51,297 bases of DNA from Eggerthellaceae bacterium (GCA_017431165.1 JAFRLO010000037.1:1-51297), one strand, 5' to 3'. Numbered from the stretch's first letter, positions 136 through 6,219 are shown. Program-made: numbers and translations. The notes: generated from the sequence alone by a model not told the origin.

Positions 136-588
136 GTGCCATTGGCACTTGCCTCAAAGATAGCGAAGCTCGCCGGCATCGATGAGTATCGCGCCGACCT
201 TCTTCCTGAAGACAAGCATGCCATCGTCCAACAATTGCAAGCCGAAGGTTACAAGGTTGCTATGATCGGCGATGGGGTGAACGACGGCCCTGCACTGGCT
301 GCTGCGCATGTAGGCATTGCCATGAGCGGAGGGAGCACGGTTGCCCGCGAGGCGGCTGATATCGCGCTGGTATCGGATGACCTGAATGCTCTTGTCGATT
401 TGAGGAAAATGAGCCGCATTCTCGTTACGCGTATGAAGAATGGCTATCGATTCACTATCGCACTCAATTCGCTTTTGCTCGCTCTCGGTATCGGCGGCAT
501 TATCACACCGCAAGTCTCATCGGCAGCGCACAATGGGTCGACCATCGCGCTCTCGGCATTCAATGCGCGGGCATTCCTTCCCGAATAA
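136..588 (+). pseudogene. 5'-truncated heavy-metal P-type ATPase remnant
   Basis: Only the C-terminal quarter of a P1B-type ATPase is left. Visible are the end of the P domain with [10 protein letters not shown] and the conserved [16 protein letters not shown] stretch, followed by one hydrophobic segment and the usual family C-terminus. The phosphorylation motif DKTGT, actuator domain, metal-binding domain and most membrane helices are missing. Similarity seems to begin near base 154 ([12 protein letters not shown]); the bases to the left, back to an in-frame stop at 61-63, do not resemble the family. The reading frame itself is intact, so the loss looks like a 5' deletion or rearrangement rather than decay by frameshift. 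It is unlikely to be functional. The alternative, a start of the gene outside the window, is excluded by the in-frame stop. Confidence 0.8.
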
Positions 589-684: not shown

Positions 685-1335
685 TCAACGCCGTTTGCGA
701 TAGCTGCGCAGCACGCCGATGGTGATGCCGATAGCGATAAGGGCGACAACCAGGCTCCCGATGGTTACCCACTTGAGAATCGTCTCAGTATCCGCATCGG
801 TTGTTCCAGAAGCGGCTTGGCCAGTCTGCGGCTTCTGCGTCTGAGCCGATTCTGCCCCAGCAGTCTTCTTGAGCGTCGATGAATCGAATGTGAAGGAGTA
901 CTCTATCTCGTGCGCATTGCCCATGGCGGTCGTGTCGCCGATCATCACGAGTGGCGTATCGAATGCGCCCACGGGTACTTTGAATTGCGAAGTCGGTTTC
1001 TGAGTGATCGGCATGATCTTCTCGCCGTTCACCTTCATGTAATCATAATTCTCGCTGCTCCAGATAAGCGTCGCATACGCCTTGCCGTCAGCAACCTCGA
1101 GTTTGGCAGGCGATTCGACTGTCGCCTTGCCCGTACCACCCGCCATCGTCACGCCAATGGTATAGCTGCCGGGCTCGAGAGCTTCAATCGCCTCAGCTGC
1201 ATACGCATGCAAAGTCGAAGCGCAAAAGAGCACCACAGCGCATACCATCACGGTAAAGGCTGCAAAGCACCTGGCAAACAACGTTTTTTGATTATTGGTT
1301 CGCAACAAAGTAATACTTCCCCGTGCTCTTGTCAT
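685..1335 (-). CDS. NEAT-like membrane-anchored surface protein (small, 216 aa)
   Basis: Secreted, membrane-anchored protein with one beta-rich domain. The N-terminus carries a long hydrophobic signal (FAAFTVMVCAVVLFCAS) ending near AYA-AEA; residues about 45-150 start with LEPGSYTIGV and contain VADGKAYATLIWSS, the layout of NEAT (iron-transport-associated) domains; a TM helix and an RKRR tail close the protein. NEAT domains bind haem in Gram-positive surface proteins; binding here is inferred, not seen. It is the last gene of the riboswitch operon and overlaps the 3' end of the DUF2149 gene by 44 bases. The start ATG at 1335 is chosen because GGAG lies 9 bases upstream and it gives a clean signal peptide; a longer reading to 1443 would lie wholly inside the upstream gene. 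Confidence 0.6.
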   Translation of the reverse strand: MTRARGSITLLRTNNQKTLFARCFAAFTVMVCAVVLFCASTLHAYAAEAIEALEPGSYTIGVTMAGGTGKATVESPAKLEVADGKAYATLIWSSENYDYMKVNGEKIMPITQKPTSQFKVPVGAFDTPLVMIGDTTAMGNAHEIEYSFTFDSSTLKKTAGAESAQTQKPQTGQAASGTTDADTETILKWVTIGSLVVALIAIGITIGVLRSYRKRR

Positions 1336-1597
1336 AGTAAACCGCTCCGCGTTCCTCGTATGTGTCGTCGACTTCTCCGTCTTGGTTCGCATCCATCGCA
1401 ACCTGAATGCCGATGATGTCATCGGACTGAATCGGAACCTCATTCAAGTCGATGTTGTAGCGCGTGATGAGCGCAACGAGAAAACCGAGCATCAGCACGA
1501 GCATGCAGTCGGCGATATTGAAGATGTACGATCCCGGGTTCACGTCCTCTTCAACAGGAGGATTACCTGCGAGCGAATGCGAGTATCTACGCCTCAT
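1292..1597 (-). CDS. DUF2149 protein, ExbD-like partner of the proton channel
   Basis: A 101-residue protein with a single membrane segment (residues about 25-45, NIADCMLVLMLGFLVALI) followed by a small extracytoplasmic domain ending in YDKSTGKYYFVANQ. The Asp near the start of the helix is placed like the essential Asp of ExbD/TolR. The family DUF2149 is known to be encoded next to MotA/TolQ/ExbB channel genes, as here, 4 bases downstream. Inferred role: the stator subunit that couples proton flow to work on the outward-facing NEAT-like proteins. Start ATG 1597 has AGGAAGGA about 8 bases upstream; a 16-residue longer start would lie inside exbB. Cotranscribed with its neighbours on both sides. 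Confidence 0.75.
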   Translation of the reverse strand: MRRRYSHSLAGNPPVEEDVNPGSYIFNIADCMLVLMLGFLVALITRYNIDLNEVPIQSDDIIGIQVAMDANQDGEVDDTYEERGAVYYDKSTGKYYFVANQ

Positions 1598-1601
1598 GTT
1601 T

Positions 1602-2330
1602 TTATCCTTCCTGTATGGATCCACGCGGAATGGACACGTCATCATCGCGCCTTTCCATCCATGACGGAACTGCGCTTTGCGCCGCTGGAGCTTTCACGCT
1701 CGAACGTTGTGGTGTGGCCGCCAACTCATTCGCCCTCTCAAGAACGCATTCCATCGCTGCCTCGAATGCCGCCATGTACTTCGCATACCACGATTTGCGC
1801 ACTGCTGATACGAACAACGCGAGTGCGCCGACAATCAAGCCGAGGATGGTCGTGTCGAACGCGACGAGCAGGCTCTCTGACAGAAGCGAAGTATCACCCG
1901 TGCCGATGGAAACGATGCCAGGACCAAGCGGGATGAGCGTACCCATCAGACCGAGCATCGGCGCGACCTTCGCGATGAAGTCGGTTACCTTCGTACGGGT
2001 GTCATAGATGTTCCGCTCGCTCGCAACCAAGTTCACGGCCATCGACTCGCGTTGGGACTCCTTCGCGTGCGGATGCCGCAGCAATTCGAGCAGGGCCTGC
2101 TTCTGGCGCAGCAGCAAATCTGCATCCTCGATGACCTCGACAGGATTCTCGTCAGCGCCCAGATCGTCGATAAGCACAGGCAAATCAAGCTTGAAGTAGC
2201 GTCTCTCTGTGAACAGCTCAGCAATCAACATGCCGATGATGACCACCATGGCGATGGTGAGCACAATCAGCAGCACGATGACCGGTATCTGCAATGCACT
2301 CGAAATCGTATGCAGCATCTGAATAAGCAT
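1602..2330 (-). CDS. MotA/TolQ/ExbB-family proton channel
   Basis: Membrane protein of 242 residues with the ExbB layout: one N-terminal helix (residues about 13-40), a cytoplasmic stretch of about 75 residues, then two helices. The signature APMLGLMGTLIPLGPGI and AFDTTILGLIVGALALF is the MotA/TolQ/ExbB core, with the small and polar residues that line the proton path. ExbB proteins form pentamers around ExbD-type partners and power TonB in Gram-negative bacteria; here the partner is the adjacent DUF2149 protein and there is no TonB or outer-membrane receptor. GAGG lies 9 bases before the ATG. Six bases separate it from the upstream NEAT-like gene, so translation is likely coupled. Confidence 0.85.
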   Translation of the reverse strand: MLIQMLHTISSALQIPVIVLLIVLTIAMVVIIGMLIAELFTERRYFKLDLPVLIDDLGADENPVEVIEDADLLLRQKQALLELLRHPHAKESQRESMAVNLVASERNIYDTRTKVTDFIAKVAPMLGLMGTLIPLGPGIVSIGTGDTSLLSESLLVAFDTTILGLIVGALALFVSAVRKSWYAKYMAAFEAAMECVLERANELAATPQRSSVKAPAAQSAVPSWMERRDDDVSIPRGSIQEG

Positions 2331-2336
2331 TGTTTT

Positions 2337-3338
2337 CTACCTCTTCTTTCCCAATGCGAATGAAACCGAACGTAATAGAATGCCGGCAAGCACAGCGCCT
2401 GCCATGATGAGCATGAGGATTTGCGACAGGGAGAGCCCTTGAGACTGCGCCTTTCCCGAAAGCTCGGGTGCGCTGGCTGCAGCATCTGCTCCCGTTTGCG
2501 TATCGAACGTGACGCCTGTAATGACCACACCCCGCTTCGCACCAGGGGAAACAGCCTGCGCGCCTCCGCTCTGCGATGTTGCAGCGCTGTTTGCACCTTG
2601 ATTCGCAGTAATCTGATCATTGATATCATCGATTAAGCCGCTATAGCCTGAACCACCACTCGGCGTTGAGTCGCCCGACGGTGCAGGAGTCGGATCGGTG
2701 CCGCTCATGGCAGCATACACCTCGTCTGTCGCCTTGAACGCGATGAAGCGATGCCACCAGCGACCGCCTGCGAAATCGGCGTTGTTGCCACCATAAGTCG
2801 CGACATCCATCGGCCAGTTCAGCGCAGGAATCTGCAACGAGAAATAATGCGGCACATAACCTTGGGAAGGACTTCCGAAGATGTAGCCATCCCCATCCGT
2901 GCCATCAGCATTACAAGCGGCAGCCGCTTCAATAGCAGTACCCCACCGCATATGCGTATATGCCTGCGACAGGTAGAAGTGCACGGTGAACGTTCCCCCG
3001 CTTACCGTGAGAGTGCAATGGCACCAGGGCGGATCCTGGATACGCCCGGAGCACTCCGAGGCGGTCGGATACAGCCAGCACATCGTTGATGTAGTCATGG
3101 CATCGATGTTATATGTGCCATCAGGTACCTCTCCGGGCATGATGACCTCGCCCATCGATGCCATATACGAGTTCCACGAATCCTGAGAGCGAGATGCCGC
3201 GCCGTTGAACGGATCGGCAGTGGAGTAATCGCTGAAACTCGCGAATGCGGTGCTTGGGGTTAGACATGCGAACGCGAGGGCGAGGCTTGCAAGCAAGATG
3301 CCCAAACGTCCGTGTACTATGTCTTTCGGAAAGCGCAC
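2337..3338 (-). CDS. NEAT-like membrane-anchored surface protein (Trp/Cys-rich, 333 aa)
   Basis: Secreted protein with signal segment GILLASLALAFACLTPSTAFA, an extracytoplasmic domain that begins with VPDGTYNIDAM (the D/E-G-T-Y opening shared with the other two surface proteins of this operon), a Ser/Gly/Ala-rich stalk and a C-terminal TM helix with tail LGKKR. The domain has unusual Trp, Cys and His content (CWLYP, PPWCHC, GGRWWHRF), which could serve metal or tetrapyrrole binding; that is inference. The start is uncertain: GTG 3338 lies just past the end of the upstream gene and gives a normal signal peptide, but its ribosome site is weak, so translational coupling is likely. ATG codons further upstream overlap the preceding gene. 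Confidence 0.55.
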   Translation of the reverse strand: MRFPKDIVHGRLGILLASLALAFACLTPSTAFASFSDYSTADPFNGAASRSQDSWNSYMASMGEVIMPGEVPDGTYNIDAMTTSTMCWLYPTASECSGRIQDPPWCHCTLTVSGGTFTVHFYLSQAYTHMRWGTAIEAAAACNADGTDGDGYIFGSPSQGYVPHYFSLQIPALNWPMDVATYGGNNADFAGGRWWHRFIAFKATDEVYAAMSGTDPTPAPSGDSTPSGGSGYSGLIDDINDQITANQGANSAATSQSGGAQAVSPGAKRGVVITGVTFDTQTGADAAASAPELSGKAQSQGLSLSQILMLIMAGAVLAGILLRSVSFALGKKR

Positions 3339-3357
3339 TGTATGCGATACCGCTGGG

Positions 3358-5814
3358 TTAGTTCTTATCTTCGCGATGCACGAAACGCAATGCGAAACCG
3401 AGTGCACCGAGCGCAGCGGCGCACAGGATTCCCGCAAGAATAGCGAGCGGTGCGTTGCCCGCGCTATCGTCATTGCCCATCGATTCACCCGTGAATCCAA
3501 GCCCATTCGAACCGAGCGAGCCCTTCCCCAGCGAGGCCTGCGCCGTGGGTGATGCCGCCCCTGTCGTGGTCGCCTTGGTCGTATTACCGGTCCTCGAAGC
3601 CGCAGCAGCAGCCAATGCAGAGCTGTTGCTCGCAGTCGAGCCGTTCGGGTTCACAGACGGAGCTGCACTTGAACCTCGTCCTTGCAGTTGGTCGATGATG
3701 TCGAGCAACTCGTTGATGACAGCCTCATACTCCTCGGAGCTCGTATCGCTTCCGCTCGGCAGCGGACTGTCGGGAGATGTGCGGGATTCATCGATTGCAT
3801 TCGTCAGCTCAACAGAAATACCTGTCGTGCCGCTTCCCGCATCCTGCGCTTTCCACACGAAATGCGTAGTTGAATTCAAATCGATCGGCACATCGTAGGT
3901 ACGATAGTCTTTATTGCTCACGGGCGGATTGTTCGCGTATTCGCGTCCGTTGATATGCATGATGCCGTCAGTCGTGGACTCGTGCTCGATGGTCGCAATC
4001 GCGAGGCCATCCTTCACCGTGACGCTCTTCACGTTGAAGGCCTTCGAACGCGTGGACTGGGTTTTACCGTAATCGTATGACGACTCGATGCCAGTCGTGT
4101 ACACGCCTTCTGGCAGCGTCGTTGACGCGTTCGCACTGCTCATGGCGTCTAATGCCCACTGCGCATTCTCGAGGATGCGACCGTAAGGGGTCGTGCTCAG
4201 CGGAGGTTTCTCATCATCGAGACGCGTTTGGACATCGGCAGGCAGTGCATTATAGGCTGCAGCCGCCTTCGCGATGGCGCCATCATCGTCGTTCCTGATG
4301 TCGATCGGGTCGCGCGGAAGAGCCTCTATGAGCGCCTTGGCCACGTTTTCGCTATCGTCTGTGCCATCGATGCGGATAACACCGCCTGCCAGATCGATTG
4401 TCAACGTTCGGTCAAGCCACAAATCGCTATCGACGTGATGGAAGCTCATCTGGATGGGCTCACCGAGGCTGAAGCTCTTTTGCCCTGCCGAATTCTCGAA
4501 CACGAGCAGGAACGAACCATTCGAAAACGTCGCACCCGCGGGTGCGAGCTCGCCTTCGATCATCGACGTGTACTCGATGTAATCGTACGCCTCATCATTC
4601 ATCGGCAAGGTCACAACGCACTTGAACATGCTGTCATTCGGGTCGCCGATGGCACGCACGCTCGCCGTCGGAGCTGCATTGAAGTCGGGAGCAACGCCGT
4701 CGCCAACCTCAACCGCAATGTCGAACGCATTGTCATAGCGCTCGAGCGTGAGCGTTGCCGCAGCAAGGTCGAGCTCGAACTGGTATGCGTGCAACTTCTC
4801 GGCACTGTCATCGACGTCATCAGCGTCAATAACGGCAAATGGAACGAGCAACGCATTATACGCCGTTGGGATGACGAAACGCATCGTTCCGTCCTCTTGA
4901 GGCTCACCGGCAATCCATGCGGAAAGGTCATCGCCTGCCGCTAGCGCCTGCGCAAGGTTGCCGAGGAACATGTAGTCAACCGATGCGCCTTCCAAATCAA
5001 CAGATAGTTCGACCGAACCGCTTTCTTCAACCGCAGCGGAAGCATTACCGGCAGTCAAGCCATCCGCCTTATTCTCCACGTCGAGCTCGATGAAATCCTC
5101 TTCAGGAGCAGCAGGCTCGGCGATTTCGGTTTTCAGCTCATACATGATCGGATAGGGCATAGTGCTCGAAATGCCAGCGAAGTATGTATCGCCGTTTAGG
5201 TCGACAGGTATCGGATACGTGCTGTCCGACTCCCTCGGAATAGTCTCTCCACCAACCCAGATACTCGGATACGAGGTCAGTTTGTTGTCAGCGGCAGTGC
5301 CGCTGGTAACGTAGATGTAGGCCGTAGCCTTGCCGTCCTGGACGACGACCTTCTCTACCCACCAATTCCTAACACGAGAAGACGTGCTCTTGCCCTTATT
5401 GGACTCCGAACTCACTGCCGGAGTCGACGTCGTGGAGTAGGTGCCATCCGCAAGCGTAGTACTGTCATCGATATCGAACGACTTGACGGACCACAGCGCG
5501 CTTTCGAGGACACGACCCAACGATTGACCGGCGCTTGGATGGCTTTCTGCATCGAGCGTTGCCTTATCCTCGTCGCTCAACGCCTGGTAATCCGCCCAAA
5601 CCGCTTCGACTGCGGCCTTGTCATCCGCGGTAAACGATGCCGGATCGACCTCGAGCGCTGCGATCGCCGTTCGCACGCTATCTATCGTCGCGGTCGCAGG
5701 ATCCGCAAGCGCCGTTGGCGCAAGCATCAAGCCGAATGCAAGTGCAGCGGCGAGCGCTGCGCGCGCCCACGCTTGAATCATCTTTGACGAACCCATCGAT
5801 GATTCCCTTCTCAT
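3358..5814 (-). CDS. Large NEAT-like repeat surface receptor (818 aa)
   Basis: First gene of the riboswitch operon. A signal peptide ends near residue 37 (LAPTALA-DPA). Two tandem units follow, each made of a helical stretch (with VLESALW or ILENAQW at its end) and a beta domain opening with LADGTYST (from about residue 118) or LPEGVYTT (from about residue 555), both with VxDGxAxA strands typical of NEAT domains. Between them, residues about 240-530 form a further beta-rich region without a recognised match. A Ser/Ala/Thr-rich stalk and a TM helix with a charged tail (HREDKN) anchor it. No LPxTG motif is seen. Start ATG 5814 is preceded by AAGGAGTTGG; an in-frame ATG at 5838 lacks such a site. 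The ligand is unknown; the riboswitch points to cobalamin or a precursor, the fold to haem. Confidence 0.6.
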   Translation of the reverse strand: MRRESSMGSSKMIQAWARAALAAALAFGLMLAPTALADPATATIDSVRTAIAALEVDPASFTADDKAAVEAVWADYQALSDEDKATLDAESHPSAGQSLGRVLESALWSVKSFDIDDSTTLADGTYSTTSTPAVSSESNKGKSTSSRVRNWWVEKVVVQDGKATAYIYVTSGTAADNKLTSYPSIWVGGETIPRESDSTYPIPVDLNGDTYFAGISSTMPYPIMYELKTEIAEPAAPEEDFIELDVENKADGLTAGNASAAVEESGSVELSVDLEGASVDYMFLGNLAQALAAGDDLSAWIAGEPQEDGTMRFVIPTAYNALLVPFAVIDADDVDDSAEKLHAYQFELDLAAATLTLERYDNAFDIAVEVGDGVAPDFNAAPTASVRAIGDPNDSMFKCVVTLPMNDEAYDYIEYTSMIEGELAPAGATFSNGSFLLVFENSAGQKSFSLGEPIQMSFHHVDSDLWLDRTLTIDLAGGVIRIDGTDDSENVAKALIEALPRDPIDIRNDDDGAIAKAAAAYNALPADVQTRLDDEKPPLSTTPYGRILENAQWALDAMSSANASTTLPEGVYTTGIESSYDYGKTQSTRSKAFNVKSVTVKDGLAIATIEHESTTDGIMHINGREYANNPPVSNKDYRTYDVPIDLNSTTHFVWKAQDAGSGTTGISVELTNAIDESRTSPDSPLPSGSDTSSEEYEAVINELLDIIDQLQGRGSSAAPSVNPNGSTASNSSALAAAAASRTGNTTKATTTGAASPTAQASLGKGSLGSNGLGFTGESMGNDDSAGNAPLAILAGILCAAALGALGFALRFVHREDKN

Positions 5815-5929
5815 CTTTCCAACTCCTTCAACACCCAAACCTCCGTGAAAGCATCGTATCGTCTCGATCAGACGACGAGCACACGCAAGATATCATCACA
5901 TCGCGCATTGCGTAACCGAATCAGCCAAA

Positions 5930-5959
5930 TAAAAAACGCGTCCTGACCGGACGCGTTAG
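5930..5959 (-). terminator. Riboswitch expression-platform terminator
   Basis: Read on the minus strand, ACGCGTCC and GGACGCGT form an 8-bp hairpin with a short loop, followed directly by a run of six T. It sits between the cobalamin aptamer and the first gene of the operon, so premature termination when ligand is bound is the likely mode of control. Confidence 0.85.
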
Positions 5960-5984
5960 CGAAGAAGCACGATTGCCTTCGCGC

Positions 5985-6180
5985 GCTCGCGCGCGAGCCG
6001 TGCAACCACTTCTTAAGGAACACTACTCCGGGGTTCACAGAGCCATCTAGCGTCTGAGCAGGACAGGCATTCCGACTCTTACGGCAATGTCCCTTGCTCG
6101 GGAATTACACCCGATTCCCCTGCCGCGTGATGTACCTTGCGGCACCCCTACGCAACTGCCCAGCATTCGGTTATCAACAT
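5985..6180 (-). promoter_or_regulatory. Cobalamin (B12) riboswitch
   Basis: On the minus strand the leader contains the ordered conserved blocks of the cobalamin aptamer: GGTGCCGCAAGGT, then GGGGAATCGGGTGTAATTCC (bases about 6102-6121), GCAAGGGACATTGCCGTAAG, and GTCGGAATGCCTGTCC (about 6061-6076), which matches the family box GAGTCAGGAxACCTGCC. The region between the G/A-rich core and the last box is short, so this may be a reduced variant. A GC-rich hairpin (GCTCGCGCGCGAGC, about 5984-5997) and the terminator at 5930-5959 follow before the NEAT-like/ExbB operon. Such switches turn off uptake or synthesis genes when cobalamin is plentiful. Confidence 0.85.
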
Positions 6181-6189
6181 ACGGAGGTC

Positions 6190-6219
6190 ATTGTATTTGA
6201 CGAGGTGAACAAGTGTCAA
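6190..6219 (-). promoter_or_regulatory. Promoter of the riboswitch operon
   Basis: Minus strand: TTGACA (6214-6219), an 18-base spacer and TACAAT (6190-6195). It sits just upstream of the aptamer, so the transcript would start near 6183 and carry the complete riboswitch. A GTTGCGCAAC palindrome borders the -35 box on the upstream side (6222-6231). Confidence 0.8.

Follow-up and report, generated by a model that had tools for sequence, protein, structure and literature searches.

The five-gene operon on the minus strand at positions 685-6219 of a contig from an Eggerthellaceae metagenome-assembled genome (MAG) (GCA_017431165.1 JAFRLO010000037.1:1-51297; the whole stretch of 51,297 nucleotides is referred to here as the window) probably encodes the cell-surface component, anchored in the membrane and driven by protons, of a system with which this single-membrane gut bacterium would gather corrinoids or cobalt-tetrapyrroles when vitamin B12 is scarce. 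By analogy, this system reads as a B12-tuned counterpart of the Hmu and Iht systems of Porphyromonas gingivalis. The operon, whose coordinates had been given correctly in a preliminary description of this DNA, is preceded by a promoter, an adenosylcobalamin (AdoCbl)-II aptamer and an intrinsic terminator, and its products are three exported, membrane-anchored proteins, an ExbB/MotA-type channel and a DUF2149 partner. The gene order from 5' to 3' is P5, P4, ExbB, DUF2149 and NEAT, the start codons of P5, P4 and NEAT having been picked by us from ribosome-site or orthologue evidence (for P5, an upstream AGAAGG site). None of the five genes codes for TonB or an outer-membrane receptor, a search for these not having been extended to the whole genome, and no ATP-binding cassette (ABC) transporter is encoded within 685-6219. 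The features are as follows.

6190..6219, minus strand: promoter-like site, TTGACA-18-TACAAT, 11/12 consensus positions, a consensus match only and the best in the region
6057..6131, minus strand: predicted AdoCbl-II (cobalamin) riboswitch aptamer, RF01689 covariance-model match, 33.7 bits
5935..5957, minus strand: intrinsic terminator of the expression platform, AACGCGTCC-GGTCA-GGACGCGTT stem, then TTTTATTT
3358..5796, minus strand: P5, 812-amino-acid (aa) exported protein, with two NEAT-like domains by profile comparison flanking further beta domains, and a C-terminal membrane helix
2337..3338, minus strand: P4, exported protein of ~333 aa, with one NEAT-like domain by model and fold search and a C-terminal membrane helix
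1602..2330, minus strand: ExbB/TolQ/MotA-type proton channel, PF01618 E 8.1e-11, profile match to solved ExbB and MotA
1292..1597, minus strand: DUF2149 protein, ExbD-like partner, single transmembrane helix, Asp conserved, PF09919 E 0.0017 (under the cut-off)
685..1335, minus strand: NEAT-domain protein with a signal sequence and a C-terminal membrane helix, PF05031 E 1.6e-4, model and fold search

Since an Rfam scan of the window at the gathering threshold returned no match, a search at a lower threshold was needed, and it placed an RF01689 match at 6057-6131 that scored 33.7 bits, the gathering score being 36.5 (E 4.7e-6 over 701 nucleotides, 1.9e-6 genome-wide). This match is strong though short of the curated Rfam cut-off, and the orthologous element in a related genome (G001) also scored 33.7 bits. 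Weak matches to snoRNA and microRNA families were set aside as chance. The terminator at 5957-5935 combines a perfect 9-bp stem with a T tract. The minimum free energy was not unusual (z -0.88) and is uninformative taken alone. The aptamer is predicted to bind AdoCbl and to switch transcription. The covariance model supported the aptamer proposed in the preliminary description, and in two further genomes a cobalamin riboswitch likewise precedes the cassette, with 40.7 bits in one (L056) and 68 bits against a cut-off of 50 in the other, an AdoCbl riboswitch (L085).

The cassette itself was found in at least four genera (loci L056, L057, L058, L059 and L075, and GTDB loci L078 to L085), and the order P5-P4-ExbB-DUF2149-NEAT is preserved in other genera, some loci being interrupted by contig ends or lacking the last gene. 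The genomes that carry it are MAGs, mostly from ruminant and deer sources. At one locus (L058), a gene for an exported-type CbiK, a class II chelatase, lies directly before P5-P4-ExbB-DUF2149; its N-terminus is beyond the contig, and the MAG concerned (G117) has one in-frame stop.

The last protein of the operon (685-1335) matched PF05031 with E 1.6e-4 and 22.5 bits, under the gathering cut-off of 32.8, which its relatives in the family do exceed. Its NEAT assignment is settled, despite the sub-cut-off score, by the structure model and the fold search: pLDDT (predicted local distance difference test) was ~95 across the NEAT domain, the 15 Foldseek matches with E ≤ 0.001 were NEAT domains without exception, and VIA aligned the model with IsdX1 at Z 12.9 and 2.3 Å across 106 residues. 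According to this model, the protein has a true NEAT beta-sandwich fold. P5 and P4 had no Pfam match. P5 counts as NEAT-like because its profile aligned with that of the NEAT family (hhalign, 96.7% probability, 4e-10). For P4 the match by profile alone was weak, so its structure was modelled; the model was of moderate confidence (pLDDT ~80 over residues 45-195), and its top Foldseek (E 1e-4) and VIA (Z 8.0) rows were all NEAT, which makes P4 NEAT-like as far as this model can be trusted. The three exported NEAT-like proteins of the preliminary description were therefore recovered, and none had an unrelated fold; the PF05031 search that it proposed matched the last protein alone and below the cut-off.

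The haem-binding motifs of NEAT domains, SxxxxY in the 3-10 helix and YxxxY in strand 8 (PMC4143258), were absent from the NEAT alignment (A2). Most of the 25 aligned relatives instead share GG[ST]G[KR]A, WSSxxYDxM and TTAMSxPHxI[DE]Y, the last of which is missing in two divergent rows (L183 and L184). A 2014 survey of NEAT domains noted clostridial members that also lack YxxxY while keeping a loop methionine, suggested a role of unknown nature in anaerobes, and reported that certain domains of the family are without a ligand (PMC4143258).

The channel protein matched PF01618 above the cut-off (E 8.1e-11, 42.2 bits; cut-off 22.9), and its profile search retrieved solved ExbB and MotA structures. 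The DUF2149 protein, whose gene directly follows that of ExbB, matched PF09919 below the cut-off (E 0.0017, 19.1 bits; cut-off 27.1), and no PF09919 match was obtained in the genus genomes at E 0.001; its assignment is upheld by an invariant Asp and by its place behind ExbB. ExbB of the window type is encoded at 519 loci in GTDB genomes, 80 of which, most of them from Clostridia, were fetched for neighbourhood analysis. DUF2149 was directly downstream in 75 of the 80, recognised as an open reading frame (ORF) in 53 and by motif in 22, and the transmembrane Asp was kept in 53/53 aligned ORFs. To judge from these sequences, ExbB and DUF2149 form an old, conserved pair.

Where 6 kb was available on either side of ExbB, a complete FecBCD-type importer with all three parts adjoined it in 17/29 loci, and in GTDB loci L087-L155 the ExbB-DUF2149 pair stands beside FecBCD importers and SLH, Shr-like or Oxidored_molyb (molybdopterin-binding) surface proteins. 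Because importers and differing surface proteins adjoin the clostridial pairs, the pairing with an importer is general in single-membrane bacteria, and the cargo probably differs between loci. ExbB-type proton-powered motors are usually known from two-membrane bacteria. The preliminary description had regarded the idea of a proton channel working on surface receptors in a single-membrane bacterium as new; the single-membrane setting is real, but it is not unique to this organism, since ExbB-DUF2149 is widespread in Clostridia and DUF2149 was also matched in Methanosarcina acetivorans.

Four AdoCbl-II matches were found in the operon's own genome, in the window, before a cbi operon, before an operon for a giant protein, and before CobT, CobU and CobS, the last genes having been named by eye from the sequence. 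The cbi sister operon (L049, L218) has AdoCbl riboswitches of 58 and 52 bits, above the cut-off, and begins with a NEAT lipoprotein, followed by cbiD to cbiC, a FecCD permease, an ATPase and a PF01497 (BtuF-type) binding protein; it also encodes two lipoproteins, one a CbiK and the other P4-like. The giant-protein operon, also under an AdoCbl riboswitch, encodes an exported protein of ~2400 aa with a CbiK domain (5.5e-68) and ricin lectins, followed by a lipoprotein with DUF4430, a pair of ATPases and an energy-coupling factor (ECF) substrate component. The giant is found at L051/L157 in the own genome and at L053:375-7529 (minus strand, contig C13) in G001. Since importers lie in these sister operons, ABC transport is not missing, and the earlier statement that no ABC transporter is present applies to the operon itself but not to its regulon, where FecCD and ECF importers are under AdoCbl riboswitches. 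Transcobalamins, too, carry DUF4430, at their C-terminal end (PMC4350170). A transcobalamin-like barrel in the giant is not claimed, because the alpha/alpha-toroid matches were weak (PF13243 1e-4, below cut-off).

CbiM was absent in 3/3 genus genomes, NicO, CbtA and small CbiX not having been searched for. CobN (PF02514) was absent from the own genome and from all 138 family genomes, which rules it out as the missing chelatase. The neighbourhood survey suggested in the preliminary description thus recovered the recurring riboswitch-cassette and a FecCD/BtuF importer in a sister operon, but not CobN. In G001, which is 98% complete and has the cbi operon, two CbiK matches were found (contigs C7 and C13), both exported, and no cobalt-inserting enzyme was found inside the cell. 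In many relatives, the neighbours of lipoprotein-type CbiK are FecCD importers and lipoproteins of the NEAT and P4-like types; some NEAT domains are fused to a PF01497 binding protein, and cobalamin riboswitches above the cut-off precede clusters of P4-like protein, CbiK, NEAT and importer (L190, L197). The phyletic profiles of NEAT lipoprotein and CbiK largely coincide (25/27; p 1e-19, not corrected for relatedness). Exported CbiK keeps the catalytic-type motifs GHGT.H (GHGTSH) and GDHANNDM, apart from one divergent type with a twin-arginine signal and the second motif only. Among solved structures, it is closest to CbiK (1qgo), 'Heme-binding protein FetB' (9b86, 9e-33) and 2xvx (4e-27), which we take to be the periplasmic CbiK of Desulfovibrio with a role in haem metabolism. 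An anticorrelation between exported CbiK and CbiM was not seen across the family.

Two further observations were made. A 116-bit cobalamin riboswitch at L193:16112-16311 (minus strand) precedes an apparent peptide/nickel-type binding protein with permeases, a candidate B12-regulated importer. In the window, positions 136-588 (plus strand) hold a 3' fragment of a metal P-type ATPase gene at the contig start, and the full 699-aa gene adjoins the cassette in a sister genome (L031:11465-13564).

Under the favoured reading, low AdoCbl would let transcription pass the terminator, and the NEAT proteins would bind a tetrapyrrole in the wall and on the outside of the membrane. With energy from the proton gradient, ExbB/DUF2149 would alter the shape of the anchored NEAT proteins, or of exported CbiK close by, or make them release cargo, and the cargo, or the metal exchanged by CbiK, would then be passed to the binding proteins of ABC or ECF importers. 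The cargo, the coupling of the motor and the action of the riboswitch are what we infer, and a B12-related cargo, which had earlier been considered the better bet, is retained as such. A bolder version, put forward tentatively as a lesser possibility, is that the motor works NEAT receptors re-tuned from haem to a corrinoid or cobalt-tetrapyrrole, with exported CbiK loading or swapping cobalt outside the cell and so replacing the known cobalt importer.

Several points count against the favoured reading. The window aptamer lies under the Rfam gathering cut-off (33.7 of 36.5 bits), and no riboswitch was found near the cassettes at L057, L059, L083 and L084, some contigs starting close to the operon. 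Co-regulation does not equal co-function, and a contact of ExbB with NEAT proteins would have to be assumed. To our knowledge, haem or haemoglobin is the ligand of every studied NEAT domain. The chelatase and the motor have their nearest relatives in FetB/IhtB and HmuS of P. gingivalis, which act on haem porphyrins. An unlikely alternative is a haem or haem-iron uptake system that happens to be under B12 control, in which NEAT would bind haem, exported CbiK would remove or swap the metal, and ExbB/DUF2149 would drive the process as in Hmu. The NEAT fold of the last protein, the likeness of exported CbiK to 9b86 (9e-33), the Shr-like haem-protein domain in clostridial ExbB-DUF2149 loci, the haem function of HmuSTUV (PMC10434189, PMC13227078) and weak matches of the binding proteins to IsdE are consistent with it, whereas SxxxxY and YxxxY are replaced by a different conserved motif, and AdoCbl control recurs in several genera and is common to the cbi and cob operons.

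Another alternative, which we consider distinctly unlikely, is a route of cobalt import that bypasses the known transporters, whereby exported CbiK would load cobalt into sirohydrochlorin outside the membrane, NEAT would hold the product and FecCD would import Co-sirohydrochlorin for CbiD and the subsequent steps. Such a route would agree with the absence of CbiM from the genus genomes, with only two CbiK matches in G001, both exported, with the retained GHGTSH and GDHANNDM motifs and with the location of importer and CbiK in the cbi operon; it is weakened by the fact that NicO, CbtA and small CbiX were outside the search made, that no sirohydrochlorin export carrier is known here and that no anticorrelation of CbiK with CbiM exists across the family. 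It is very improbable that the proteins are structural or adhesive, with ExbB/DUF2149 serving wall or envelope remodelling and B12 control reflecting general growth regulation: NEAT-like and Ig-like folds are versatile and ligand-free NEAT domains exist (PMC4143258), but the same domain families occur, under cobalamin riboswitches, next to cbi genes, CbiK and importers.

No earlier report of NEAT domains with a cobalamin riboswitch or with ExbB was found in the open-access literature, in which the NEAT survey (PMC4143258) was the only relevant paper for ExbB; subscription papers were not covered. If the favoured reading is true, NEAT domains would not be solely haem modules, the ExbB family would act on surface proteins in cells that lack an outer membrane, and many bacteria of the rumen and gut would own an unrecognised route to B12 precursors or cobalt. 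The operon's NEAT family offers a direct test of the question raised by the 2014 survey, the purpose of anaerobe NEAT domains without the haem motif (PMC4143258). Furthermore, Hmu, Iht and the operon's system would be united as extracytoplasmic chelatase machines that are partly proton-driven.

The Ton-like label of the preliminary description captured the likeness to Ton/Tol/Mot stators, with which the operon shares the ExbB fold and a single-helix transmembrane partner that carries a conserved Asp, but the operon has no TonB or outer-membrane receptor, DUF2149 replaces ExbD, and the closest precedents are Hmu and Iht rather than Ton alone. As in the haem relay of Gram-positive Isd systems, anchored NEAT proteins would hand a tetrapyrrole to a membrane importer; Isd has iron control, the YxxxY haem motif and no ExbB, whereas the operon has an AdoCbl riboswitch and lacks the haem motif. 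The periplasmic CbiK of Desulfovibrio is likewise an extracytoplasmic class II chelatase, in a two-membrane host. The P. gingivalis Hmu system (hmuYRSTUV) resembles the operon in placing ExbB-type HmuU and DUF2149 HmuV beside extracytoplasmic chelatase-family and tetrapyrrole-binding proteins (PMC10434189, PMC13227078). It differs in its two membranes, TonB-dependent receptor, CobN-like HmuS and iron/haem control, in place of which the operon has one membrane, NEAT proteins, CbiK-type chelatases in its regulon and an AdoCbl riboswitch. Iht (IhtABCDE, with FetB/IhtB) resembles the regulon in its CbiK-like exported lipoprotein with binding protein, permease and ATPase (PMC10913741), and differs in its haem/iron setting, its TonB receptor and its lack of NEAT and riboswitch. 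FetB has been reported to swap porphyrin metals. Because the regulon has counterparts of both Hmu and Iht, together with NEAT receptors and AdoCbl control, the favoured interpretation is that a corrinoid or cobalt-tetrapyrrole is acquired, one step of this being driven by protons at the cell surface.

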